A stretch of DNA of 64,000 nucleotides, taken from NCBI RefSeq assembly GCF_011516935.1, contig NZ_WOTF01000005.1, forward strand, positions 55,253 through 119,252, written 5' to 3'. This document shows positions 4,775 through 18,988 of this stretch, piece after piece (position 1 is the stretch's first letter; each line of letters opens with the position of its first letter). Made by a program: the position numbers and the translations under genes. The notes beneath the pieces are model-generated. The model was not told the origin of the DNA. It did no database searches and worked only from the letters and a program-made list of their open reading frames with translations. The stretch is from Acetobacter farinalis (GTDB lineage: Bacteria > Pseudomonadota > Alphaproteobacteria > Acetobacterales > Acetobacteraceae).

Positions 4775-7510
4775 ATGTCGGGCATTGCAGATGATGGTGG
4801 TTTGAGATTTTTCTGGGGCAAGGCACGCCCTGTGCAACTGGCGCAAGACACCGGCTTTTTAATGCACCCGCTTATTGCCCACATGCTGGACGTGGCGGCG
4901 GTGGCAATCCTGTTGCCCGGCAGTGAGCGTCTGGGGCTGGATTATCGGCAACTGGGAATGCTGGTGGCGCTGCATGATATTGGCAAGCTGGTGCCGGGGT
5001 TTCAGGCCAAAGTTCCGGAATGCTGGCCGGAACAGGCGTTGGGGGCTTACCCGGAGAGAGCCACGTCATCACGCCATGATAGCGATGGTCTGGCTCTTCT
5101 GGACCATGTCTGTCAGGACGCACTGGCTCCCCTTTTTGGAGTGGATGCCGAAGGAAATTCCTGGCTGCCTGACGAAAAGAGCCGAGTAGGGCGCGCCATA
5201 GCCGGACACCATGGGGCACCGGTTTCCGCAATTGAAGACAGAGCGCGTAAAGCTGATATCAAGGTGATCGCGCCATATGCCCGTAAACTTGTCAGCCTTT
5301 TGTTTGATCTTTTCCGGCCGCCACCCATACCGCCTTATCTTGCGGCTGAGGCTCTGCTGCAACTGGAGTGGCGGCTTGCCGGGTTGACGGTACAGGCGGA
5401 CTGGATCGGCTCCCGGCAGGAGTGGTTTCCATATGTCTCGCCGGATGATGTTGCAGATGCTTCCGGTTATTTCTGGAATCACGCGCTGCGGCATGCACAG
5501 GCGGCCATCGTGCGTGCAGGGCTTGCTCCTGTCAGCGCGTCACCCTTTCAGGGGATTGCGCATCTGTTCCCGCATATCAGGACGCCATCACCTGTTCAGG
5601 CTCTGATGGAAGTCGCGTCCCTACCGACCGGCCCGACGCTGGTTGTTATTGAGGACATGACGGGTTCAGGCAAGACGGAAGCGGCACTGGTGGCGGCGCA
5701 TCGGTTGATGGCGGCGGGGCGGGCAAACGGCCTGTTTGTTGCGCTGCCAACCATGGCCACAGCCAATGCCATGTTTGATCGGCTGGCTATGGCGTACCGC
5801 AGCCTGTTCCAGCCTTCCTCTCACCCCTCTCTTGCGCTGGCGCACGGGCGTGCCTTGCTTGATGAGCGCTTTGTCTCGGTGCTGGCGCCTGAGGATGCTC
5901 TGGAGGGCGCAGCCTTGAAAACGGACCGTGCTGAGGCCGCCGAAGTGTGCTGTTCAGCGTGGCTGGGGAGTGAATCGCGCAGGGCACTGCTCGCGCAGGT
6001 GGGTGTCGGCACGATTGATCAGGCGTTGATGGCGGTCCTGCCGGTCCGGTTTGCCACCATGCGGCAGGCCGGGCTCGCCGGAAAGGTGCTGCTGGTGGAT
6101 GAATGCCATGCTTATGATCCGTACATGCAGGAAGAAATGGCCGCCCTGCTGCGCTTTCATGCGGCCATGGGCGGTTCTGCCATTCTTCTTTCCGCAACGT
6201 TGACCCGTGCTGTACGCCAGAAGCTCGCAGCGGCTTTCAGAGAAGGCTTGCGTCAGGAAGACCCTGCGGAGCTGTCCAGCACGGCCTATCCGCTTGTGAC
6301 CCTTGTGGGGCAGGTAGGGGCGGAAGAACTGCCCTGCGCTCCGCGGGCCGGGCTGGAACGGACCATTGCGGTAAGGCAGGTCTGTGACGAGGCGTCTGTT
6401 ATGACGGAAATCGTGAGTGCGGCATGCAAGGGGGCTGCGGTCGCATGGGTGCGCAATACGGTGGATGATGTGATTGCCTCGGCAAAAGCCCTTAAGGAAA
6501 AAGGGATCGAGGCCATGGTCTTTCATGCCCGTTTTGCCATGGTGGATCGTCTGGCTATTGAGCGTTCGGTACTTGCCCGCTTCGGAAAGGACAGCACAGC
6601 GCCAGACCGGGCCGCAGTGCTGGTGGCCAGTCAGGTTATTGAACAGTCTCTGGATCTGGATTTTGATGTGCTCTGCACAGATCTCGCCCCCATGGATCTG
6701 ATCATTCAGCGGGCTGGCAGGCTTCGTCGCCATAAGCGGGATGAGCGGCCTGTTGAGCGTGATGAAATCTGCCTTTTCTCACCTGATCCTGTTGAAGACC
6801 CAGATCCAAAATGGATCAGCCGGGTTCTGCCTGGCACCGCCGCTGTTTATCGTGATGCTGCCCTTTTATGGAGAACTGCAAGAGCCTTGAAGCGCGCAGG
6901 TGCCATACGAAGCCCTGACTCTGTGCGTACCTTAATTGAGGAAGCTGGTGAGACAATTGAGGAAGCTGGTGAGACGTCCGATGTGCCGGCTGGCCTGACG
7001 GGTGCCGCCAGGGATGTTGAAGGGAAAGGGCGTGCGGCCCGTGGTGCTGCTGCCCGAAATGTTCTGAATTACCTCACTGGATATGCTCCGGAGGGGGCTT
7101 TGTGGGAGCGCGACATACGAACACCCACACGGCTTGAAGAGCGCCCGTCTGTTACGGTGCGTCTCGGTGTCATGAGGGGCGGGGAGGTTGTGCCCTGGGC
7201 CGCGTTGAAGGACAGCACGCTTGCGGCACCACATGAGAAGAAGCGCGCCTGGGCACTTTCTGAGGTTTCCGTGGCGCGTCATACCCTTGCGGCGTGTCCT
7301 GTCTCGGAAGACCGGAAGGCTGCGGTCGCTGCGGCCCGGTCTGACTGGTCTCGCTGGGAGCGGGAGGCGGAAGACCTTTATCTGCTGTTGATTCTGGAAG
7401 AGGCAGGAGAGGGATGGGAAGGGGCGGGCTGTAGCGAGCAGGGGCGAGATATTGTGGTCAGATATGATCAGCAGTATGGTCTGCTCATCGTTCCCGCCTT
7501 GGCGGGATGA
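4775..7510 (+). CDS. cas3: Cas3: type I-E CRISPR helicase-nuclease
   Basis: The effector nuclease recruited by Cascade after R-loop formation. 911 aa. N-terminal HD nuclease with the H67-D68 pair in 'LHDIGKLVPGFQAK' and a later 'GHHGAP'. The SF2 helicase has Walker A 'MTGSGKTEAAL' near residue 295, DExH box 'DECHAYD' near 441, SAT motif 'LLSATLT', and motif VI 'QRAGRLRRH'. The C-terminal domain is present. Two oddities: a perfect 21-bp tandem duplication encoding (IEEAGET)x2 near residue 721, and a final segment (about the last eight codons and the TGA) that is itself a degenerate CRISPR repeat. First gene of the cas locus, separated from cas8e by the creTA-like gap. Confidence 0.97.
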   Translation: MSGIADDGGLRFFWGKARPVQLAQDTGFLMHPLIAHMLDVAAVAILLPGSERLGLDYRQLGMLVALHDIGKLVPGFQAKVPECWPEQALGAYPERATSSRHDSDGLALLDHVCQDALAPLFGVDAEGNSWLPDEKSRVGRAIAGHHGAPVSAIEDRARKADIKVIAPYARKLVSLLFDLFRPPPIPPYLAAEALLQLEWRLAGLTVQADWIGSRQEWFPYVSPDDVADASGYFWNHALRHAQAAIVRAGLAPVSASPFQGIAHLFPHIRTPSPVQALMEVASLPTGPTLVVIEDMTGSGKTEAALVAAHRLMAAGRANGLFVALPTMATANAMFDRLAMAYRSLFQPSSHPSLALAHGRALLDERFVSVLAPEDALEGAALKTDRAEAAEVCCSAWLGSESRRALLAQVGVGTIDQALMAVLPVRFATMRQAGLAGKVLLVDECHAYDPYMQEEMAALLRFHAAMGGSAILLSATLTRAVRQKLAAAFREGLRQEDPAELSSTAYPLVTLVGQVGAEELPCAPRAGLERTIAVRQVCDEASVMTEIVSAACKGAAVAWVRNTVDDVIASAKALKEKGIEAMVFHARFAMVDRLAIERSVLARFGKDSTAPDRAAVLVASQVIEQSLDLDFDVLCTDLAPMDLIIQRAGRLRRHKRDERPVERDEICLFSPDPVEDPDPKWISRVLPGTAAVYRDAALLWRTARALKRAGAIRSPDSVRTLIEEAGETIEEAGETSDVPAGLTGAARDVEGKGRAARGAAARNVLNYLTGYAPEGALWERDIRTPTRLEERPSVTVRLGVMRGGEVVPWAALKDSTLAAPHEKKRAWALSEVSVARHTLAACPVSEDRKAAVAAARSDWSRWEREAEDLYLLLILEEAGEGWEGAGCSEQGRDIVVRYDQQYGLLIVPALAG
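6934..6975 (+). repeat. 21-bp perfect tandem duplication inside cas3
   Basis: Two identical 21-bp units (6934-6954 and 6955-6975; unit starts AATTGAGGAAGC and ends GGTGAGAC) lie head to tail. They keep the reading frame and insert IEEAGET twice into the linker between the helicase core and the C-terminal domain. Looks like a recent slippage duplication. Confidence 0.95.
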
Positions 7511-7564
7511 ACCGTCTTGAGCCGTAGGCCGGTTTATGTTCCCTGCGTAAGCAGGGATTTAAAA
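7488..7564 (+). ncRNA. creA: Candidate CreA: degenerate mini-CRISPR (pseudo-repeat, pseudo-spacer, pseudo-repeat)
   Basis: Pseudo-repeat 1 (7488-7514) reads GTTCCCGCC-TT-GGCGGG then ATGAACCG, keeping the Cas6e hairpin and the exact 8-nt 5' handle ATGAACCG of the array repeats. Pseudo-repeat 2 (7536-7564) reads GTTCCC-TGC-GTAA-GCA-GGGAT, a six-pair stem with a GTAA loop; its C-to-T change is matched by G-to-A on the other arm. Its 8-nt tail, which Cas6e would cut off, is not conserved. Between them lie about 21 nt of pseudo-spacer beginning TCTTGAGCCGTAGGC. By comparison with the published CreTA family, this would be processed by Cas6e into a crRNA-like guide that directs Cascade to repress creT. 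The function is inference; the repeat similarity is direct. Confidence 0.8.
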
Positions 7565-7570
7565 AATAAG

Positions 7571-7626
7571 AAGTCTTGAGCCGTAGGCTTAATTAGGTTG
7601 ATTCGGTTTGCGAATCGGTTTAAACA
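7571..7626 (+). promoter_or_regulatory. Candidate creT promoter with a CreA-guided Cascade target and AAG PAM
   Basis: The 15-nt TCTTGAGCCGTAGGC at 7574-7588 repeats exactly the first 15 nt of the pseudo-spacer (7515-7529), and is preceded by AAG (7571-7573), the canonical type I-E PAM. A 32-nt protospacer from 7574 would end at 7605 and cover a candidate -35 (TTGATT, 7598-7603); after 17 bp comes a -10-like TAAACA (7621-7626). Beyond the 15-nt seed the match is poor, which would favour binding over cleavage. An inverted repeat GATTCG-N5-CGAATC (7600-7616) lies between the -35 and -10. The promoter assignment is by inspection and the -10 is weak. Confidence 0.65.
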
Positions 7627-7632
7627 AAAACA

Positions 7633-7718
7633 GCCACCCCAAGCGAGCTTGAGGTGGCGGGAAGGAAAATTAAAGGGAGGAGCGTAACGTGCGATACACG
7701 TTTGCGAGAAGAGTATAA
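7633..7718 (+). ncRNA. creT: Candidate CreT: toxin RNA with 5' hairpin, strong SD and AGA-AGA mini-ORF
   Basis: The expected transcription start about 7 nt after the -10 coincides with a 12-pair stem-loop (GCCACCCCAAGC 7633-7644, GCTTGAGGTGGC 7647-7658, one mismatch), which would protect the RNA 5' end. A purine-rich SD (AAAGGGAGGAG, 7672-7682) follows, then a GTG-started mini-ORF with two consecutive rare AGA arginine codons. CreT toxins described in other CRISPR systems work in this way, sequestering a rare tRNA in a highly translated mini-ORF. Nothing here shows toxicity directly. The 3' end is uncertain; a strong hairpin at 7748-7780 may belong to it. Confidence 0.7.
7689..7718 (+). CDS. 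9-codon mini-ORF of the candidate CreT RNA
   Basis: GTG CGA TAC ACG TTT GCG AGA AGA GTA TAA, encoding MRYTFARRV. The SD GGGAGGAG ends six bases before the GTG, an excellent spacing. AGA looks like a minor arginine codon here (CGC, CGT and CGG dominate the neighbouring cas genes), so the tandem AGA at 7707-7712 should stall on a scarce tRNA. The peptide itself is unlikely to matter. Confidence 0.65.
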   Translation: MRYTFARRV

Positions 7719-7727
7719 GGGGCAATT

Positions 7728-7793
7728 ATGTCCCCTAAGACTAATAACCCTGCCTGTCAGATTGCAGCTGATAGGCAGGGCCATATTATATAA
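7728..7793 (+). CDS. Possible 21-aa ORF between creT and cas8e
   Basis: ATG TCC CCT AAG ... ATA TAA, 21 codons, preceded by AAGGGG (7718-7722). It overlaps the 7748-7780 hairpin and the -10 element of the presumed Cascade promoter, so it may simply be open by chance. No similarity recognised. Confidence 0.2.
   Translation: MSPKTNNPACQIAADRQGHII
7748..7780 (+). terminator. Strong stem-loop between creT and cas8e
   Basis: CCCTGCCTGTCAG (7748-7760) pairs with CTGATAGGCAGGG (7768-7780) over 13 positions with one G-U, around a 7-nt loop. It is followed by CCATATTATATAATTATTT rather than a clean T tract, so it is either the creT 3' stabilising hairpin/terminator or a leader structure. The placement suits an end for the short creT transcript. 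Confidence 0.5.
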
Positions 7794-7794
7794 T
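7789..7794 (+). promoter_or_regulatory. Candidate -10 of the Cascade operon promoter
   Basis: A perfect TATAAT sits at 7789-7794, about 27 bases before the cas8e ATG at 7821, with a weak RBS (TTAGGAT, 7805-7810) between. No good -35 is evident at 16-18 bp, so an activator may be needed. Confidence 0.45.
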
Positions 7795-7820
7795 TATTTC
7801 AAATTAGGATGTCTAATTAA

Positions 7821-9482
7821 ATGACGGCGTCTGAATTTTTCAATCTCATTACAGACGCATGGTTGCCAGTCCTCCATAAATCCGGCGCACGGAGCGTCAT
7901 TCGCCCCGCCCAGATTGTAGAGGGATTGAAAGACGATCCGATTATCGGATTTTCCTGGCCGCGTGCGGACTTTCGGGTCGCCACCTTTGAATTTCTGATC
8001 GGCCTTGTGGCCACAGCGTGCCCGCCAACAGGCAACCGGGCGTGGTTGCAGGGGTGGAATACGCCGCCTTCTGTCGAAAAGCTGGATGAAGCCTTTGCGG
8101 CTGTTACCGATGCATTCTGGCTGGATGGCCCCGGCCCACGTTTTCTTCAGGATTTTGAAGATCTTCAGAGCGGACAGGAGCTTATCGAACGGCTGCTGAT
8201 TGAGGCACCGGGGGAAAGCACTGTCAAACGCAATGCCGATCTTTTTGTCCATCGGGGGCAGGTGGAGCGTCTGGGGCGGGGTGCTGCGGCAATGGCGCTG
8301 TTCACCCTGCAATCTTGGGCGCCAAGTGGCGGCGCAGGGAATATGACAGGCCTGCGCGGTGGTGGTCCGCTGACTACTCTTGTGCTCCCCTCGGAAGAGG
8401 CCAGCGTGTGGGAGATTGTCTGGGCGAATGTTCCTGAAGGTCCCCCCGCAAAAGAGGGCGATATAAAAACAGTTTTCCCATGGATGGCCCCCACGGTGGT
8501 GTCGGGCAAAGAGGGAACGGATGTGCGGGCAACAGAGAACGCGCACCCGCTGCAATGCTGGTGGGGTATGCCAAGGCGCATCCGCCTCGATTTTGAGACT
8601 GTTGAAGAGGGTACCTGTGATCTGACAGGGCAACCGGATGACCGCTTGGTGTCGGGATGGCGCCAGCGGCCCTACGGCCCGAAATATGCCGACTGGATTG
8701 GCATGCCGTATGGAGCGGGCGGGACCATTCACCCCCTTACACCGCGCTACCGGCAAAAGGACGGAGCCGAATGGCTGGCCGTTCATCCGCAGCCGGGGGG
8801 GATTGGCTATCGGCACTGGACCGGCGTTGTGGTGGAAAGTGCTGATGGGAACAGGCTTCCGGCAAGCTGTGTTGTCAACTGGCGGGGGGCACGCGCGCTG
8901 AATACATGCCTTTCACAACAGCCCCGCCTGCTGGCGGCGGGATTTGATATGGATAACATGAAAGCCCGCGGCTTTGTGGAAAGCGAGATGCCGCTCCCCG
9001 GCGCTCAGAATGAGGAGCGCCAGAAGGATCTGAACGCATTGGCGTGCCTCTGCGTAAGCGTTGCAACGCAGATTGCTGATATCCTGCGCGGGAGTGTGCG
9101 TGAGGCCCTGTTTGGGAAAGGCACTGTTTCTGTCGATGTAACGCTGCTCTCCAACGTGCGTGAGCGCTTCTGGGCAGAAACAGAAGGGCCGTTTTTCACC
9201 CTGATGCAGAAAGCTTCGGGTGTTGAAGATGAAAGCAATGATGAGACATTCAAGGCATCATGGCTCCGCACCCTCGCACAGGCCGCAATGCGGGAGTTTG
9301 ATAGCACTGTCATTCTGGAAGCCGATACGGGCATGACAGAAGCCAGGCGTTCCGCACTGGCGCGCAGGCGGCTGGGGGCTGCCGTATCAGGAGGGGGGAA
9401 AGAAGGAGAAAAGATTATGTCGAGTCTGGGTCTTTCTCAGCTTGTCAAAAAGAAATCACGCACAGCAGGGAAGGTGTCCTGA
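7821..9482 (+). CDS. cas8e: Cas8e (Cse1/CasA), Cascade large subunit
   Basis: 553 aa, in the Cse1 size range. The N-terminal 'FFNLITDAWLPV' and 'RPAQIVEGL' open the protein in the standard Cse1 way, followed by the core with 'PRADFRVATFEFLIGLVA'. A C-terminal helical bundle completes it. In Cascade, this subunit reads the PAM, locks the R-loop and recruits Cas3. Presumed start ATG 7821 with a modest RBS. Its TGA overlaps the cse2 ATG by one base (TGATG), so the two are translationally coupled. Confidence 0.96.
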   Translation: MTASEFFNLITDAWLPVLHKSGARSVIRPAQIVEGLKDDPIIGFSWPRADFRVATFEFLIGLVATACPPTGNRAWLQGWNTPPSVEKLDEAFAAVTDAFWLDGPGPRFLQDFEDLQSGQELIERLLIEAPGESTVKRNADLFVHRGQVERLGRGAAAMALFTLQSWAPSGGAGNMTGLRGGGPLTTLVLPSEEASVWEIVWANVPEGPPAKEGDIKTVFPWMAPTVVSGKEGTDVRATENAHPLQCWWGMPRRIRLDFETVEEGTCDLTGQPDDRLVSGWRQRPYGPKYADWIGMPYGAGGTIHPLTPRYRQKDGAEWLAVHPQPGGIGYRHWTGVVVESADGNRLPASCVVNWRGARALNTCLSQQPRLLAAGFDMDNMKARGFVESEMPLPGAQNEERQKDLNALACLCVSVATQIADILRGSVREALFGKGTVSVDVTLLSNVRERFWAETEGPFFTLMQKASGVEDESNDETFKASWLRTLAQAAMREFDSTVILEADTGMTEARRSALARRRLGAAVSGGGKEGEKIMSSLGLSQLVKKKSRTAGKVS

Positions 9483-10042
9483 TGTCTCTCAATGATAAGG
9501 AAAGCGTGCGCCAGATTGTGCTCTGGTGGCAGGGCTTGCAGCCTGACCCGGATAAAAAGCAACAGGGCAACCGTGGTGCACTGGCGCGCTTGCGGCGCTG
9601 TGCAAGCGTGACAGAAGCTCTGTTCGAACCGGAAACACAGGCGCTTGTACGGAACTGTGGTGGCAAGGGAGATTTCGAACTGTGCCGTCTGGCACTGGTG
9701 GCGGCTGTTCTGGCGCATGTGCGCAGGAACGCTCCGGGCCTGCCTGTGGCGCGGCAGATTGGCCCTGTTGATACGCATGATGATGCCGCAGCTCTGTGTA
9801 AACCTGTCCGGTTTCGCCGGGTGCTGGATGCCGAGACTTATGATGAGTGTCTGCGTGTTTTCCGGCGGCTTGTGGTTCTCGCCGGGAACGGTGTGGACAT
9901 TGCCGATCTGGCGCGCGCGCTCCTGACGTGGCCGCGGGAAGAAGCCCGTGATGATGTGGTGAGGGATAAGATCCGGCGGCAGTGGGTTTACCATTACTGG
10001 AATGCAGGTTCTCCAGACACAGTTTCCGATACGACTGTTTGA
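9482..10042 (+). CDS. cse2: Cse2 (CasB), Cascade small subunit
   Basis: 186 aa, the usual Cse2 length. Helical protein with the typical opening 'VRQIVLWWQGLQPD...RGALARLRRC' and the pair 'FRRVLDAE..DECLRVFRRLVVLAG', then 'DIADLARALLTW'. Two copies form the belly of Cascade and stabilise the displaced DNA strand. Coupled to cas8e by TGATG; an 18-bp gap precedes cas7e. Confidence 0.95.
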   Translation: MSLNDKESVRQIVLWWQGLQPDPDKKQQGNRGALARLRRCASVTEALFEPETQALVRNCGGKGDFELCRLALVAAVLAHVRRNAPGLPVARQIGPVDTHDDAAALCKPVRFRRVLDAETYDECLRVFRRLVVLAGNGVDIADLARALLTWPREEARDDVVRDKIRRQWVYHYWNAGSPDTVSDTTV

Positions 10043-10060
10043 TTTAAAAGGAATATTGAA

Positions 10061-11119
10061 ATGAGCCGTTTTCTTCAGCTTCATCTTTTGACGTTCTACC
10101 CGCCTTCCAACGTGAACCGTGATGACTCGGGTAACCCCAAAACCGCTACGGTAGGCGGCGTGACACGGCTGCGTATTTCCTCGCAGGCGCTCAAGCGGGC
10201 ATGGCGTACCTCTGGTGTGTTTTCATCAGCTCTGGACGGCCATATGGGCCAGCGCACGACACGCCTGGGGGGCGAGGTTCTCGCGCATTTGCTTGAAAAC
10301 AAGGTGGATGAGAAAAAAGCTGTTTCCATCGCACGCGAGATTGCAGGCGTTTATGGCAAGGTAAAGGGCGAGAAGGATGAGCATCCCACCCGCACCGAAC
10401 AGCTTGTGTTTGTGTCCCCCTCTGAACGGGAGGCCGCCTTTGAGGTTGCTGATCGTCTGGCGGCAGGGGAAAAAATTGACCTGAAAAAAGAGCAGGATGC
10501 GCTGCTGCATCGTGCGGATTCTGCAGCAGATATTGCTCTGTTCGGCCGCATGCTGGCCAGTGCGCCCGCCTTCAACCGTGAAGCAGCGGTGCAGGTGGCC
10601 CATGCCATCACCACCCATCGGGTTACGGTTGAGGATGATTATTATACAGCCATTGATGATCTAAAGGATGACGCAGAGGATGCCGGTGCGGGCTTCCTTG
10701 GGGAGGCTGGTTTCGGATCAGGCGTATTTTACCTCTATCTCAGCATCAATCGTGACCTTCTGAAGAAAAACCTTGGTGGCGAGAGTGAAACCGGCGTGGC
10801 GGAAGCGGCTCTTGGCGCTCTGGCTGAAGCCGCGATGACAGTCTCCCCGTCCGGCAAGCAGAACAGTTACGCTGCTCTGGCTCGTGCGGGCTATGCGCTG
10901 GTGGAAAAGGGGAACGCCCAGCCCCGTACGCTGGCGGGTGCGTTCGCGCGGCCCGTGGGTGGGGCAGATCTGATGGCAGAGTCCATTAAAGCTCTTAAGG
11001 ACTTCCGTGCAGAACTGACGCGTGTTTACGGAGCCGGTGCGGATGAGACATGTGAGCTGGCGCTGGGAGACAAGAAGAGTGCCACGCTGGCTGATATTGT
11101 CACCTTCTGCCGGACCTGA
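10061..11119 (+). CDS. cas7e: Cas7e (Cse4/CasC), Cascade backbone
   Basis: 352 aa RAMP protein, six copies of which coat the crRNA spacer. The family opening 'LQLHLLTFYPPSNVNRDD' is followed by 'GGVTRLRISSQALKRAWR' and a central 'FGRMLASAPAFNREAAVQVAHAITTH', all standard Cse4 signatures. RBS AAAAGGAATATT just before ATG 10061. The stop is 5 bp from the next ATG. Confidence 0.97.
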   Translation: MSRFLQLHLLTFYPPSNVNRDDSGNPKTATVGGVTRLRISSQALKRAWRTSGVFSSALDGHMGQRTTRLGGEVLAHLLENKVDEKKAVSIAREIAGVYGKVKGEKDEHPTRTEQLVFVSPSEREAAFEVADRLAAGEKIDLKKEQDALLHRADSAADIALFGRMLASAPAFNREAAVQVAHAITTHRVTVEDDYYTAIDDLKDDAEDAGAGFLGEAGFGSGVFYLYLSINRDLLKKNLGGESETGVAEAALGALAEAAMTVSPSGKQNSYAALARAGYALVEKGNAQPRTLAGAFARPVGGADLMAESIKALKDFRAELTRVYGAGADETCELALGDKKSATLADIVTFCRT

Positions 11120-11124
11120 GCAGC

Positions 11125-11907
11125 ATGGGGCATTTTCTGACATTTGCCATGGTCGCCCCTATGGCATCGTTCGGTACCCTCGCTGTTGGTGAGCGACGGG
11201 ACGGAGCGGACCGGCCAGCACGCTCTGCCGTGCTGGGGCTGGTGGGGGCCTGTCTGGGCGTTGCGCGTGAAGATGAAGCAGACCAGAGCGCTCTGGCTGA
11301 GGGCTATGGCCTTGCGGTGCTGTGTCATGCGCACGGTCGTCTGCTGACGGATTATCATACGGCCCAGACAGCACCTTCGCGGCGGAACTGGCGCCCGGCA
11401 ACGCGCGCGCAGGAACTGGCCGAGGCGCAGGGTGAACTGGCCACAATCCTTTCACGCCGGGATTACCGGACGGGAAGCTGGTATCTGGGGGCTTTGTGGA
11501 TAAGGGGGGATGCACCGCGCTGGTCTCTTGAGGAGATACAGGGGGCGATGCGGGAGCCTGTTTTCACGCCATCGCTGGGGCGCAAATCCTGCCCTCTCGG
11601 GCTTCCGCTTGACCCGGATCTGGTGGAGGGAGAGAGCGCGACAGCCGTTCTTCTGGCGCGCCAGAAGAGTGGGCGGGAAGGCACTTTGCCTGCACGCTTC
11701 GGCCTGTTTCGGGATCAGTTAACAGGGCGGGACATGCGCACGGAGACGCTGGTTGTGCTGGATGCGGCAGATGTGGCCGAGCATGGCGCGGGGCATAGCG
11801 TTATGCGGCGTGAAATGCGGCGCGACCAGCCGCTTTCGCGCGCGCGGTGGCAATTCGGGCTGCGTGAGGAAGCCTTGCTTCTGTGCGCGAAAGGAGCGGA
11901 AGCATGA
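11125..11907 (+). CDS. cas5e: Cas5e (CasD), crRNA 5'-handle binding subunit
   Basis: 260 aa RAMP protein of Cascade. It holds the 8-nt 5' handle of the crRNA, here expected to be AUGAACCG. Recognised by the start 'LTFAMVAPMASFGTLAVG', the stretch 'TRPATRAQELAEAQGELAT' region and 'FTPSLGRKSCPLGLPL', a Cas5e hallmark. Its stop overlaps the cas6e start (ATGA at 11904-11907). Confidence 0.95.
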   Translation: MGHFLTFAMVAPMASFGTLAVGERRDGADRPARSAVLGLVGACLGVAREDEADQSALAEGYGLAVLCHAHGRLLTDYHTAQTAPSRRNWRPATRAQELAEAQGELATILSRRDYRTGSWYLGALWIRGDAPRWSLEEIQGAMREPVFTPSLGRKSCPLGLPLDPDLVEGESATAVLLARQKSGREGTLPARFGLFRDQLTGRDMRTETLVVLDAADVAEHGAGHSVMRREMRRDQPLSRARWQFGLREEALLLCAKGAEA

Positions 11908-12593
11908 GTGCGGGTTTTCTGTCTCGTATAGCCCTGCGGCGTGATGCGTCCGTACAGGCCATTGCCCGGCTTCTGGTGCCGCAGGGGGAGGGGCTTCAAT
12001 ATGCTGCCGCGCATCATCTCCTCTGGTCCCTGTTTGGGGACGACCCTGACCGTGCACGTGATTTTCTGTGGCGGCAAACAGAGCCGGGGCATTTCATGGT
12101 GCTCTCTCACAGGGAACCTGCTGACAGCCACGGGCTGTTTGACATCGAAAGTCGGGAATTTGCACCGCGCCTGAAAGAGGGGAGCCGGCTACGCTTCCTT
12201 TTGCGCGCCAACGCGACGGTTGACCGGAAGACGCCGGGGCGTGTGCGCAGCCAACGGCATGATGTTGTGATGGATGCCTTGCACAAAATTCCATCGGATG
12301 ATCGGGCTGCTGTGCGTGATGGGGTGGTGCTTACCGCCATGACAGCATGGCTGGAACGGCAGGGCCAACGCGCCGGTTTTGAACTGGACGCGGGGGCTCT
12401 GGGCATTGAGGGGTGTGACGTGTTGCGTATTCCGCGTGCGCGCGGGCAGGGGAAGGCAACCTTCGGTGTGGTGGATGCCACGGGTGTGCTGCGTGTGACA
12501 GATCCTGCCCTTTTTACGCCGGTTCTCATGCAGGGGTTTGGGCGCGCGCGTGCCTTTGGGTGTGGGTTGATGCTTATCCGTCCAGCCCACTGA
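11904..12593 (+). CDS. cas6e: Cas6e (CasE), crRNA-processing endoribonuclease
   Basis: About 229 aa. Two ferredoxin-like folds; begins 'LSRIALRRDA', contains the early catalytic-type histidine region 'AAHHLLWSLFGD', and ends with the glycine-rich RNA-binding loop 'FGRARAFGCGLMLIRPA'. It would cut 3' of the repeat hairpin, and by inference also process the creA pseudo-repeats. Start is ATG 11904 inside the cas5e stop (ATGA), with SD AAGGAG at 11891-11896; a longer frame from 11883 is unnecessary. Confidence 0.95.
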   Translation: MSAGFLSRIALRRDASVQAIARLLVPQGEGLQYAAAHHLLWSLFGDDPDRARDFLWRQTEPGHFMVLSHREPADSHGLFDIESREFAPRLKEGSRLRFLLRANATVDRKTPGRVRSQRHDVVMDALHKIPSDDRAAVRDGVVLTAMTAWLERQGQRAGFELDAGALGIEGCDVLRIPRARGQGKATFGVVDATGVLRVTDPALFTPVLMQGFGRARAFGCGLMLIRPAH

Positions 12594-12604
12594 AAGGATA
12601 AATC

Positions 12605-13886
<1,282 letters not shown>

Positions 13887-13958: not shown

Positions 13959-16900
13959 GCGTTCCCCGCACATGCGGGGATGAACCGGGAGAGGACGGCA
14001 CAGAGGCCATTCAGAAGGCGCGTTCCCCGCACATGCGGGGATGAACCGCGCAGTTCTGCCGGGTGCGTCATTGCCCGGTGGCGTTCCCCGCACATGCGGG
14101 GATGAACCGGAGAGGGGGAGCAGTAGCGCCGCACCGCGAGCGCGTTCCCCGCACATGCGGGGATGAACCGGATATGGATACCGGCGGAAGGTTTTTGCAA
14201 AAGCGTTCCCCGCACATGCGGGGATGAACCGGGCAGGAGAGTGACGAGGAACTTGCTCTAACCGCGTTCCCCGCACATGCGGGGATGAACCGCAGTATCG
14301 CGGGCAACGGGCCGAAGTGCCGTTGCGTTCCCCGCACATGCGGGGATGAACCGAATCATGTCCTATGTAAACCCTGCCCTTGTCAGCGTTCCCCGCACAT
14401 GCGGGGATGAACCGTCTGACAGCATTGGCTCTGATCTTGACCTTGGGCGTTCCCCGCACATGCGGGGATGAACCGTCCTCGGGATACTGGTCAGCCATTA
14501 GTAATCCGCGTTCCCCGCACATGCGGGGATGAACCGATGCACTCTTCGCCCATCTTGTCCGTGAGCGCGCGTTCCCCGCACATGCGGGGATGAACCGCCT
14601 TCTCTGCCTGATCGTGGAAAGGCGAATGAGCGTTCCCCGCACATGCGGGGATGAACCGGCCATTGACGCTCGGGTTCTGGCTGTCGAGCCGCGTTCCCCG
14701 CACATGCGGGGATGAACCGGCCGCGATCTGGCAGGGATTGGCTTTCGGCTGGCGTTCCCCGCACATGCGGGGATGAACCGACGCTGGCGACGTAATGGAT
14801 TTTCTGGGGTATGCGTTCCCCGCACATGCGGGGATGAACCGTCGTCTCGGGCGCAGCAGATACTCGGCCCCGAGCGTTCCCCGCACATGCGGGGATGAAC
14901 CGTCTCTCGGGCTTACCGACCAGAACGTAGGGGAGCGTTCCCCGCACATGCGGGGATGAACCGGACGAAACGCCATGAAATACGGATACGCCAGAGCGTT
15001 CCCCGCACATGCGGGGATGAACCGCCGCAGGCGCAGCAGGAGCGGGAGCCGCAGGCGCGTTCCCCGCACATGCGGGGATGAACCGATGGGCGCTGCGGGC
15101 GCGGCCACGAACATGATGCGTTCCCCGCACATGCGGGGATGAACCGGTCGTTATCTTTGGGCACCACCGCGAACCTATGCGTTCCCCGCACATGCGGGGA
15201 TGAACCGCTGACCGTAAAAGCCTTTCTGCCCTCTGAACTGCGTTCCCCGCACATGCGGGGATGAACCGGACTAGCTATAGACCCGTTTATCGTCCAGATA
15301 GCGTTCCCCGCACATGCGGGGATGAACCGATTTGGTTTTCATCCGCACGGATCAGACCGCGGCGTTCCCCGCACATGCGGGGATGAACCGCCATTTGCTA
15401 AAGGGGCGCAAGTCTGTCCCGGGCGTTCCCCGCACATGCGGGGATGAACCGGCAGATAATCCTTATCTGCACGCCCGGCAGGAGCGTTCCCCGCACATGC
15501 GGGGATGAACCGTCATACGCTCACACAGGGCATTTCCACAACAAGCGTTCCCCGCACATGCGGGGATGAACCGCTACCCACCCCTTCACAGCCATCCAGA
15601 TGTAAGCGTTCCCCGCACATGCGGGGATGAACCGGTAAATAATACCCGCCGTAACTTTCTAAAAGCGCGTTCCCCGCACATGCGGGGATGAACCGGAAAC
15701 GCATAACGTCAGGGATAAACTGTGGGTGCGTTCCCCGCACATGCGGGGATGAACCGGTTGCCGCTAATGCTGCTGCCGGTCTGATTTCGCGTTCCCCGCA
15801 CATGCGGGGATGAACCGGCTGAGGATCAGTTTGTGGTGCTGATCCCATAGCGTTCCCCGCACATGCGGGGATGAACCGTTGACAATTACGCCTGATTTAG
15901 CTGATTACATGCGTTCCCCGCACATGCGGGGATGAACCGGGCTTCATTTTACGCTGCTTGCGAACGGAATAGCGTTCCCCGCACATGCGGGGATGAACCG
16001 GTTGCTGTTAGCCGTAATGGCGCTTCATGCAAGCGTTCCCCGCACATGCGGGGATGAACCGGTGCGCTTTATATACAAGCTGCGCCGCTCCGAGCGTTCC
16101 CCGCACATGCGGGGATGAACCGGATACTGGGGATCGGGTCGTTTTCGTAAAAGAGCGTTCCCCGCACATGCGGGGATGAACCGTTCGTCTATTGTTGAAC
16201 ACTCTAGGTGTCGAAGCGTTCCCCGCACATGCGGGGATGAACCGAGGCTTGATTGCCTCTCTGAAAATAGATATACGCGTTCCCCGCACATGCGGGGATG
16301 AACCGGCAAACATTAGCGTTATTAGAATCCCATCTTAGCGTTCCCCGCACATGCGGGGATGAACCGGAACATGCTGTGGATATTGCAGATGGTAAATTGC
16401 GTTCCCCGCACATGCGGGGATGAACCGGTGTAGGTATCGGCGCGAAGTTCGTCCTCGCTGCGTTCCCCGCACATGCGGGGATGAACCGCAGGGAAACGCT
16501 TACTCGTTAATTCTGACTTAGCGTTCCCCGCACATGCGGGGATGAACCGTTAGACAATGGCGTCCCCGGTTCCGCTGGCGGGCGTTCCCCGCACATGCGG
16601 GGATGAACCGTTCTTGGCGCAGTTGCGTATGGGTTTTGGAGTGCGTTCCCCGCACATGCGGGGATGAACCGGTCACTAGACGGCGCACCAAAACGAGAGG
16701 GAGGCGTTCCCCGCACATGCGGGGATGAACCGGCATGAGAACGGGTTTCTTGCATCCTCTGGCGGCGTTCCCCGCACATGCGGGGATGAACCGCCGTTTC
16801 ACCGTATCGGCTTTTTGTAATGCAAGCGTTCCCCGCACATGCGGGGATGAACCGCTGCTGAAACGGGCTGTTAATAAGCGGATGAGGCGTTCCCCGCACA

Positions 16901-18988
16901 TGCGGGGATGAACCGCAGCGTTTGACAGCATCCTGACCAGTGCGCAGGCGTTCCCCGCACATGCGGGGATGAACCGCATCACTAGATTTCCAACCGGCGT
17001 CACAAATAGCGTTCCCCGCACATGCGGGGATGAACCGCCGTAGCTACGCGAGAAAACAGGTCTTGGTAAGCGTTCCCCGCACATGCGGGGATGAACCGAC
17101 CTCGGACTGCTGTCTCCTTTGCGTGCTCCTGCGTTCCCCGCACATGCGGGGATGAACCGCCAAAATCCTTGGTAACATGGGTTAAAAATAAGCGTTCCCC
17201 GCACATGCGGGGATGAACCGGGTACAGTTCAGGGTTAGCGTATCGCCACCAAGCGTTCCCCGCACATGCGGGGATGAACCGCCAGCGCGATATGAATCCA
17301 CGGCCACCCACAGGCGTTCCCCGCACATGCGGGGATGAACCGATATGGCAGGCATCCCACCAGAGGCCACGGAAGCGTTCCCCGCACATGCGGGGATGAA
17401 CCGGCATAACGTCTCGCCATTCTCAAACCGCTTTAGCGTTCCCCGCACATGCGGGGATGAACCGCCGTCCGAATTTTCCCGGTGTTTGCAATTACCGCGT
17501 TCCCCGCACATGCGGGGATGAACCGCTAACAACATGATTGCTGAGTATTACGGAGAGGCGTTCCCCGCACATGCGGGGATGAACCGCTGCTTTACTAGGC
17601 GTTTACGGTGAACCATAAGCGTTCCCCGCACATGCGGGGATGAACCGCGGCTGGCGCAGATGCGGCCGGAGCTGGTGAAGCGTTCCCCGCACATGCGGGG
17701 ATGAACCGGCTGAGCAGGTGCTTTCTGCTGCCCTTACTGCGCGTTCCCCGCACATGCGGGGATGAACCGCAAAAAACCGTTTTTCTTAAAAAAGTCCGGC
17801 GGCGTTCCCCGCACATGCGGGGATGAACCGGCGCATGTCCTTACGACCGTAATAGGAGCATGGCGTTCCCCGCACATGCGGGGATGAACCGAGAACGTCT
17901 ATCATCTGATTGTTTCTTTCCCAGCGTTCCCCGCACATGCGGGGATGAACCGGAATACAGGACACCGTTACCGAGCCTAACCCAGCGTTCCCCGCACATG
18001 CGGGGATGAACCGATTTCCTGCTCGGTCTTGTCCATGCTGATTGCGCGTTCCCCGCACATGCGGGGATGAACCGCCCATGATGTAGGGCTAGGCGTTATG
18101 GCCTGGGCGTTCCCCGCACATGCGGGGATGAACCGGGGAACGGTTCCCTTCCCGGTGAGGTTCCGACGCGTTCCCCGCACATGCGGGGATGAACCGCACG
18201 TTCTATGGCTATTTCAGAGTTTCGCTATGCGTTCCCCGCACATGCGGGGATGAACCGGTGAGGAAAGACATGATTTTGCCCGCCTATCAGCGTTCCCCGC
18301 ACATGCGGGGATGAACCGGCCGGAGCAATCTGGCAGGCGAGGGCAGGGGTGCGTTCCCCGCACATGCGGGGATGAACCGGCCGGATCAGGGGGAACCTGT
18401 GACGGTGCTGGGCGTTCCCCGCACATGCGGGGATGAACCGGTTGCGCGGGCGGTCTGCCAGTATCGCGGTGGGCGTTCCCCGCACATGCGGGGATGAACC
18501 GCCAAATAAGCGCGCTCATTTGTCAATCTTCGGGCGTTCCCCGCACATGCGGGGATGAACCGACGGCGACCGGCACCGTGACGGGCGAGACGGAGCGTTC
18601 CCCGCACATGCGGGGATGAACCGCAGCGTTGCTACTGAACCCGCCGGGACAGTTGGCGTTCCCCGCACATGCGGGGATGAACCCGCCCCTTCCAGCTCGT
18701 TCAGGCTTAACTGAAAGCGTTCCCCGCACATGCGGGGATGAACCGTCCGCAGTTTTAACGAGTGCCATTTCTTATTTGTGTTCCCCGCACATGCGGGGAT
18801 GAACCGCTGCCCGGCGGCCTGACGCTCCGGCTGCCGGAGTGTTCCCCGCACATGCGGGGATGAACCGCAAACTCCCTCACGTCCTGCCCAATCTTCTCCG
18901 TGTTCCCCGCACATGCGGGGATGCACCGGTCGGGAGCCGGGTGGCCCCCTTGAATACAGGGCGTTCCCGCACACGCAGGGATGAACCG
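13959..18988 (+). CRISPR. Type I-E CRISPR array, 83 repeats / 82 spacers
   Basis: 29-bp repeat starting GCGTTCCCCGC, loop ACAT, ending GCGGGGATGAACCG, with 32-bp spacers; the 61-bp period held at every point I checked from 13959 to 18961. Strand and leader position follow the E. coli I-E orientation, transcribed left to right away from cas2. Repeats are identical until the distal end. Repeat 78 ends ACCC, repeats 80-82 begin GTG, repeat 82 reads ATGCACCG, and repeat 83 (18961-18988) has lost a C and has further substitutions. This is normal trailer-end decay, showing that new spacers enter at the left. Minus-strand frames rich in 'PHVRGT/CAGNA' are artefacts of the repeat. Confidence 0.99.

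Follow-up and report, generated by a model that had tools for sequence, protein, structure and literature searches.

The window analysed here, a stretch of 64,000 nucleotides of Acetobacter farinalis DNA, carries a type I-E gene set in which the genes for Cascade, Cas6e and Cas3 are all present (features lie on the forward strand unless stated otherwise). Hereby, cas3 (911 aa, 4775..7510; core and HD models above their cut-offs, full-length model below its own) is followed by cas8e (cse1/casA, 7821..9482), by cse2, cas7e, cas5e and cas6e (9482..12593) and by cas1e and cas2e (12605..13886), the genes from cas8e onwards being assigned with gene models. Next to cas2 lies the main CRISPR array (13959..18867), in which a pattern search finds 80 repeats with a period of 61 nt; 78 of these 80 repeats read GCGTTCCCCGCACATGCGGGGATGAACCG, and the remaining two differ from it by one base near the 5' end. 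Spacers 1, 2, 3, 4 and 6 match three A. pasteurianus plasmid records (L210-L212) with 0-4 mismatches, and the flanks of those five plasmid protospacers are AAG (three), TTG and TGG. Since its cas2-proximal spacers match small A. pasteurianus plasmids, the array appears to record encounters with such plasmids. Phage matches of the array (6 records, 60-80% identity) were read as repeat-like matches and discarded.

The gap between cas3 and cas8e contains a crRNA-like guide with degenerate repeats (7489-7556). It consists of the degenerate CRISPR repeat psiR1 (7489..7514), with a hairpin at 7493-7506 and the 5' handle ATGAACCG at 7507-7514, the spacer-like guide segment psiS of about 21 nt (7515..7535) and a second degenerate repeat, psiR2 (7536..7556; hairpin 7541-7556), which would supply the 3' handle. 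The handle corresponds to the final 8 nt of the main-array repeat. With two divergent partial repeats and a spacer of about 21 nt, the element does not classify as an ordinary array, in which near-identical repeats and spacers of about 32 nt are expected. Straight after the handle begins the first copy of TCTTGAGCCGTAGGC (7515-7529), i.e. the first 15 nt of psiS; an identical second copy at 7574-7588 constitutes the target and directly follows the trinucleotide AAG (7571-7573). A preliminary description of the locus had pointed out this exact repeat behind AAG, and its positions and letters are confirmed. The assignment of AAG as type I-E PAM made there is credible here, as three of the five array protospacers are AAG-flanked, and the sequence itself and the comparison of loci described below agree with it. 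Compared to the 32-nt protospacer assumed at the same time, the guide segment is shorter, measuring about 21 nt. In the whole window genome, the pattern AAGTCTTGNGCCGT has a single occurrence, which is the guide–target site. Unlike most other loci, the window pair matches at all 15 positions, 6 and 12 included. A further observation concerns CGGTTTAT (7530-7537), which runs from the 3' end of psiS into psiR2; it is nearly complementary to the handle and pairs in the predicted fold, which may be chance.

The cas3 stop codon TGA (7508-7510) lies inside the psiR1 handle, occupying its bases 2-4 (A-TGA-ACCG). A cas3 TGA within the handle is found in 11 of 25 guide-bearing loci, the window counted. 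Type I-E Cas6e cuts at the base of the hairpin. Judged from the position of the stop codon, Cas6e processing of psiR1 would leave the cas3 message without a stop, and guide production could therefore lower Cas3.

For the comparison, 140 regions upstream of cas8e were collected from relatives, namely from a genome scan with 99 confirmed loci, of which the best 80 were used, from further genome searches and from one plasmid; 121 regions were left after identical or too short ones had been dropped. A guide–target pair required a handle with at most one mismatch to ATGAACCG, a target lying 3' of the guide behind a PAM of AAG, ATG, AGG or GAG, and a seed (positions 1-5 and 7-11) agreeing in no fewer than 9 of its 10 bases. 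Such a pair is found in 23 of the 121 regions, whereas dinucleotide shuffling of these regions leads to an expectation of 0.26. The repeat is thus not due to chance, which the preliminary description had called very unlikely. When the PAM requirement is removed, 29 seed matches are obtained, with AAG in front of 20 and ATG in front of 3. From the 23 loci, 21 were kept, L003 being dropped as the same record as L035 and L118 as doubtful; L053 and L115 proved to be real array repeats and not guide pairs and were removed. A looser handle rule yielded L134 and L136, and L014 and L017 (8 of 10 seed positions) were added by eye following a tandem-codon scan. Same-genus loci stand outside the 121 regions, with six of eight matches read by eye. 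When the region was searched for at the DNA level, the 49 genomes of the genus returned the window's own copy only; among plasmids, nothing but 51 nt of cas8e matched, in 9 records of A. pasteurianus.

The seeds of the 21 loci vary widely (TCTTG.., GCATT.., TTGGC.., TATGC.., ATAGC..), yet each pairs with its own target. Mismatches are present at position 6, which the pair rule leaves free, in 17 of 21 loci and at position 12, which lies outside the rule, in 18 of 21, whereas positions 13-15 show mismatches in 6 of 63 cells (p 1.4e-10). In a type I guide every sixth base is flipped out of pairing. According to the available text on haloarchaeal CreTA, positions 6 and 12 of the guide take no part in pairing (PMC8501985). 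The comparison of loci strongly supports the view that Cascade is guided to PAM-flanked seed matches at these sites, and the differing seeds together with the 6/12 mismatches in 21 loci support the earlier proposal that a PAM-adjacent seed match guides Cascade in the window.

Downstream of the target a promoter is predicted (7598..7626), with TTGATT (7598-7603) as -35 element and either TTAAAC (7620-7625, the best-scoring pick) or TAAACA (7621-7626, chosen by eye) as -10 element. We treat it as predicted only, because promoter-like scores are enriched across the set (n=23), with a mean of 6.87 out of 12 compared to 5.76 at random positions, but a consensus scan with a 9-of-12 threshold did not reveal a sigma-70-like site in 7400-7900. 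The predicted -35 element starts 27 nt after the first PAM base, and TTGAC hexamers at 27-28 nt after the first PAM base are also present in L035, L036, L048, L058 and L127, with the promoter scoring preferring another hexamer as best pick in L035. Since the 15-nt match stops 9 nt before the predicted -35 element, only a full 32-bp footprint would reach the promoter. The overlap of the site with a candidate promoter is the least secure element of the preliminary description: the enrichment across the set favours a promoter, but the consensus scan of the window does not. An Rfam scan of 7400-7900 gave uxuA at 24.1 bits, far under the cut-off of 66.8, which was taken as chance. By eye, a perfect TATAAT without a good -35 element was noticed at 7789-7794, 26 nt 5' of the cas8e start, as a possible separate cas8e promoter.

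The distance from target to cas8e amounts to 247 nt in the window and encloses a unit of hairpin, Shine-Dalgarno (SD) sequence, mini-ORF and hairpin. Hereby, the 5' hairpin of a putative CreT RNA (7633..7658) is followed by the SD sequence GGGAGGAG (7675..7682; duplex energy -11.3 kcal/mol) and by a mini-ORF of nine codons, GTG CGA TAC ACG TTT GCG AGA AGA GTA TAA (7689..7718, putative creT), which starts about 100 bases downstream of the target and carries a tandem AGA at codons 7-8 (7707..7712). RNA folding, which also gave the 5' hairpin, places a small hairpin after the mini-ORF (7718..7736) and a 3' hairpin of 13 bp at 7748..7780, ending 40 nt before cas8e. The RNA from 7627 to 7820 is more stable than 200 of 200 shuffles (z -5.0). 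The features of a toxin of the CreT type, namely SD sequence, GTG start, tandem rare codons and stem-loop, can thus all be recognised downstream of the target. Here the former reading of the site as a Cascade-repressed promoter falls short, as the mini-ORF located between target and cas8e, with its tandem rare codons, was missed. A forward-strand terminator was not found in 7400-7900, the only terminator-like hairpin there (7633-7658) being on the reverse strand. Without a forward terminator before cas8e co-transcription is possible, and the guide switch may therefore also set the expression of the cas operon, which the module would perhaps govern too.

The order of 5' hairpin, SD sequence and mini-ORF between target and cas8e is found in 14 loci, the window among them. 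Nine of the 14 (window, L010, L036, L051, L058, L095, L020, L125 and L017) additionally have a hairpin of -20 kcal/mol or below 3' of the codon pair, and in L036 and L125 this strong 3' hairpin lies within a longer ORF. The length of the mini-ORF spans 9 to 54 codons, stop included, and a MAFFT alignment of the CreT RNAs was workable among close relatives only. Two minimal ORFs were noticed downstream of guide targets, i.e. ATG AAG TAA behind an SD sequence of -12.1 kcal/mol in L134 (rel -380) and ATG TGA behind one of -5.6 kcal/mol in L044 (rel -139).

Codons 7-8 of the mini-ORF are AGA-AGA in the window, L051, L060, L014 and L017, ATA-ATA in L034 (Komagataeibacter) and TTA-TTA in L058 (Rhodopseudomonas), with mixed pairs in L010 and L127 (AGA-TTA), L020 (TCA-AGA) and L125 (AGA-TCA). 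L044 has ATA-AGA at codons 7-8, yet a stop already at codon 2; L036 (TTA-TCG) has only one rare codon there, and in L095 the pair ACA-ACA sits at codons 8-9. When window and L034 are aligned, AGA-AGA and ATA-ATA occupy the same columns, and most flanking columns are conserved. Both codons 7-8 are rare (at most 5.5 per 1000) in 12 of the 14 mini-ORFs chosen by eye, the exceptions being L036 and L095. Codon usage was derived from small samples (3,750 to 28,801 codons), and the loci are partly related and not independent.

In a rule-based test, mini-ORFs were selected by ribosome-binding energy in 12 loci that carry a guide and offer 220 nt or more ahead of cas8e, the limits (220 nt, -8 kcal/mol) having been fixed after the loci had been inspected. 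The test was carried out without L014, L017 and L134, the latter having two sense codons and hence no codon 7; L044, L063, L064 and L136 fell under the energy limit. L035 was scored with the codon table of the window, and L034 was scored as a counterexample, its top-ranked start being an in-frame upstream TTG that displaces the pair. Both codons 7-8 are rare in 8 of these 12 loci (8 of 13 counting L134), whereas in the background this applies to 229 of 112,548 neighbouring codon pairs and, among ordinary genes, to 2 of 256. Identical rare pairs occupy codons 7-8 in 4 of 12 loci, compared to 29 of 112,548 in the background, and the median usage of codons 7-8 is 1.6 per 1000 compared to 16.2 for all other codons (p 6e-8, 12 loci). 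Since the hosts are GC-rich and their rare codons AT-rich, codons were also compared with the permutations of their own letters, using 13 by-eye mini-ORFs (L044 and L063 left out). Codons 7-8 are the least used permutation in 22 of 26 cases (8.3 expected) and, without L014 and L017, in 18 of 22 (7.0 expected); for codons 2-6 this applies to 14 of 62 (16.8 expected). The excess at codons 7-8, absent from codons 2-6, thus indicates that the rarity belongs to the in-frame codon and not to AT-richness. Matches of the tandem-codon scan without a guide pair (L055, L056, L078 and L117) were left uncounted. In the window host AGA is the 4th rarest of 61 codons (3.5 per 1000), hence uncommon and not extreme, its usage being 0.55-1.6 per 1000 in seven relatives. 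The window genome gave 43 tRNA matches, 42 confirmed by ARAGORN, and one of them is tRNA-Arg(UCU); since the list is incomplete, tRNA-Ile being absent from it, there may be a second tRNA-Arg(UCU).

A guide–target pair located 63-149 nt before cas8e and no comparable mini-ORF are found in L033 (A. indonesiensis), L048, L071, L019, L025 and L114, with L033, L048 and L019 offering too little space before cas8e for the mini-ORF scan. By their sequence these six loci look like CreR-type autorepressors. The guide-bearing loci L035, L063, L064, L134 and L136 have no clear equivalent of the mini-ORF, and in the nearest Cas8e relatives L032, L203 and L112 (A. pasteurianus) neither guide nor mini-ORF was found. 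When presence of the toxin is mapped on a Cas8e tree built from 55 selected rows, 12 changes are required for the 14 toxin-bearing rows, compared to 12.5 with shuffled labels. Toxin rows are thus scattered as shuffled labels would be, and the module comes and goes. A scan for guides on the opposite strand gave, as an uncalibrated raw count, 12 rows from 11 additional loci, most of which belong to Gamma-, Beta- and Deltaproteobacteria; the pair in L062 was rejected as a palindrome. The opposite-strand guides of L070, L073, L091, L098, L099, L103, L105 and L106 have AAG-flanked targets with mismatches that include positions 6 and 12, and in L070, L103, L105 and L106 the downstream ORF resembles, by eye, a short hydrophobic peptide.

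In our assessment, the window module is probably a tRNA-sequestering CreTA of type I-E with an AGA-AGA toxin, toxicity being predicted; the mini-ORF with its tandem rare codons points to a toxin-antitoxin module over a bare cas repressor. According to this model, the mini-CRISPR (7489-7556) would yield a crRNA-like guide (CreA), probably transcribed along with cas3 and excised by Cas6e, with an expected length of about 50 nt and the 5' end AUGAACCG. CreA would bring Cascade to AAG and target (7571-7588). Partial R-loops permit binding without cutting, and Cascade binding here would probably involve the seed only, so that no triggering of Cas3 is expected. Once bound, the complex would block the promoter predicted at 7598-7626, likely silencing the small RNA downstream. 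Once Cascade is lost or inhibited, CreT RNA would be made, and the strong ribosome-binding site and the hairpins would result in many initiations and in stalling on AGA-AGA. Stalled ribosomes would then sequester tRNA-Arg(UCU), for which a single gene was found in the genome, leading to growth arrest. Such an arrest upon loss of Cascade would make the CRISPR-Cas locus addictive, as losing CRISPR would harm the cell.

More tentatively, and with slightly more doubt than trust on our side, the loci may be read jointly as a type I-E family of RNA toxins with swappable targets, in which the guide is cut from cas3 mRNA and loss of the toxin gives rise to cas autorepressors. The hosts of this family would be Acetobacteraceae and other Alphaproteobacteria. 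Its fixed scaffold would comprise a hairpin, a strong ribosome-binding site, codons 7-8 and usually a second hairpin, and the codons would be exchanged among AGA, AUA, UUA and mixed pairs, so that the scarce tRNA of each host is hit. Cas6e would cut the guide from the end of the cas3 message, before the stop, the antitoxin being made at the cost of Cas3 mRNA, and repeated toxin loss would leave plain cas autorepressors.

It is, in our view, unlikely that the locus serves CreR-type autorepression only, in which the guide would send Cascade to the cas8e-cas2 promoter to tune Cas levels and the mini-ORF would be incidental or decayed. Such a pair can persist without a toxin, since the six loci described above keep it without a mini-ORF, and CreRs have been reported for types I-B, I-E and V-A in the available parts of two reviews (PMC13131331, PMC12737573). 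However, the 247 nt of the window hold the unit of hairpin, SD sequence, mini-ORF and hairpin, the codons 7-8 of which are rare in related and distant loci, and drift would not keep this. Amino-acid leader peptides are encoded by short ORFs with tandem identical codons, then stem-loops, upstream of an operon. The window shares this layout, and a mini-ORF of this kind could stall ribosomes when a tRNA is depleted, e.g. by phage or anticodon nucleases, and thereby free cas8e, with Cascade repression on top; the varying codon identity (Arg, Ile, Leu) would suit the sensing of any scarce tRNA. We nevertheless regard leader-peptide control as improbable, as an attenuator needs neither a hairpin before the SD sequence nor a very strong SD sequence, the ORF length varies as widely as 9 to 54 codons (stop included), the 3' hairpin of the window has no U-run, and a forward-strand terminator was not found in 7400-7900.

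The agreement of the window copies at 15 of 15 positions, including 6 and 12, is what a fresh duplicate would show, and would thus fit chance or a recent, functionless local duplication of a repeat-spacer piece. At the family level this explanation is refuted by 21 loci with different seeds, their own PAM-flanked targets and the 6/12 signature, 0.26 pairs being expected in 121 regions, and as an account of the module we consider it highly improbable.

If the CreTA reading is true, the changing codon pairs at a fixed ORF position would show retargeting of the toxin to whichever tRNA is scarce, and part of the persistence of type I-E loci would be explained. It would furthermore offer a sequence rule for hidden modules (seed with 6/12 mismatches, AAG or ATG, SD sequence, rare codons 7-8), and deletion of Cascade genes in these bacteria may bring unexpected lethality. 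Earlier CreTA work reportedly also predicted bacterial modules in a supplement. A bacterial (alphaproteobacterial) type I-E tRNA-sequestering CreT was not found in the open literature, supplements and closed papers being beyond this scope. The characterised tRNA-sequestering CreT toxins found there are, as far as the available text goes, haloarchaeal (PMC8501985), and the type I-E CreTA found to be studied is that of Citrobacter, described in the accessible part of the source as having no rare codons (PMC12055562).

Compared to the latter system in Citrobacter rodentium, the nearest counterpart of type I-E, whose toxin is Cascade-repressed, the window shares the type I-E context, the cas3-casA gap, a crRNA-like guide, a PAM and a partial match (PMC12055562). 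As far as the available portion of that work describes it, the guide there lies on the opposite strand and the ORF has 96 bp without rare codons, whereas the window has a same-strand guide and an ORF of nine codons with tandem AGA; as in-frame translation is required as well, a protein toxin is suggested for C. rodentium (PMC12055562). The Acinetobacter type I-F AcCreTA resembles the window in its SD sequence and mini-ORF downstream of the CreA target, located there in the cas3-csy1 gap, but its ORF, according to the accessible text, is divergent from creA, 33 bp long and conserved, unlike that of the window (PMC10097628); AcCreTA also differs by toxin mode and by type I-F. With CreR the window has in common a crRNA-like guide, which in CreR shows limited complementarity to the cas promoter. 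Unlike CreR, generally toxin-free in the available parts of the sources, the window has a toxin-like unit between target and cas8e (PMC12737573, PMC13131331).

The closest likeness in toxin features is to the type I-B CreTA of Haloarcula hispanica and H. hubeiense, which, as far as the available text describes it, likewise has a degenerate-repeat guide and a PAM-adjacent seed match (1-5, 7-11), located there at the toxin promoter, with two degenerate creA repeats in H. hubeiense and one in H. hispanica (PMC8501985). The haloarchaeal CreT, like the mini-ORF unit of the window, combines an efficient start with two adjacent rare codons (AGA-AGA or AUA-AUA there) and a stem-loop (PMC8501985). Hereby, H. 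hispanica CreT depends on a strong SD sequence, a start codon that is AUG or GUG, an uninterrupted pair of AGA codons and a stem-loop; the ORF of H. hubeiense CreT comprises six codons, two of which are AUA (PMC8501985). By sequence, the window has all of the features required in H. hispanica. The position of the AGA pair differs, however, being immediately behind the start codon in H. hispanica and at codons 7-8 in the window. Measured against the haloarchaeal systems as they are described in the text at hand, the window moreover represents a bacterial type I-E module with a hairpin both before the SD sequence and behind, its creA precedes creT and is located where cas3 ends, and among the compared loci at least three tandem codons (AGA, ATA, TTA) occupy one and the same ORF position.
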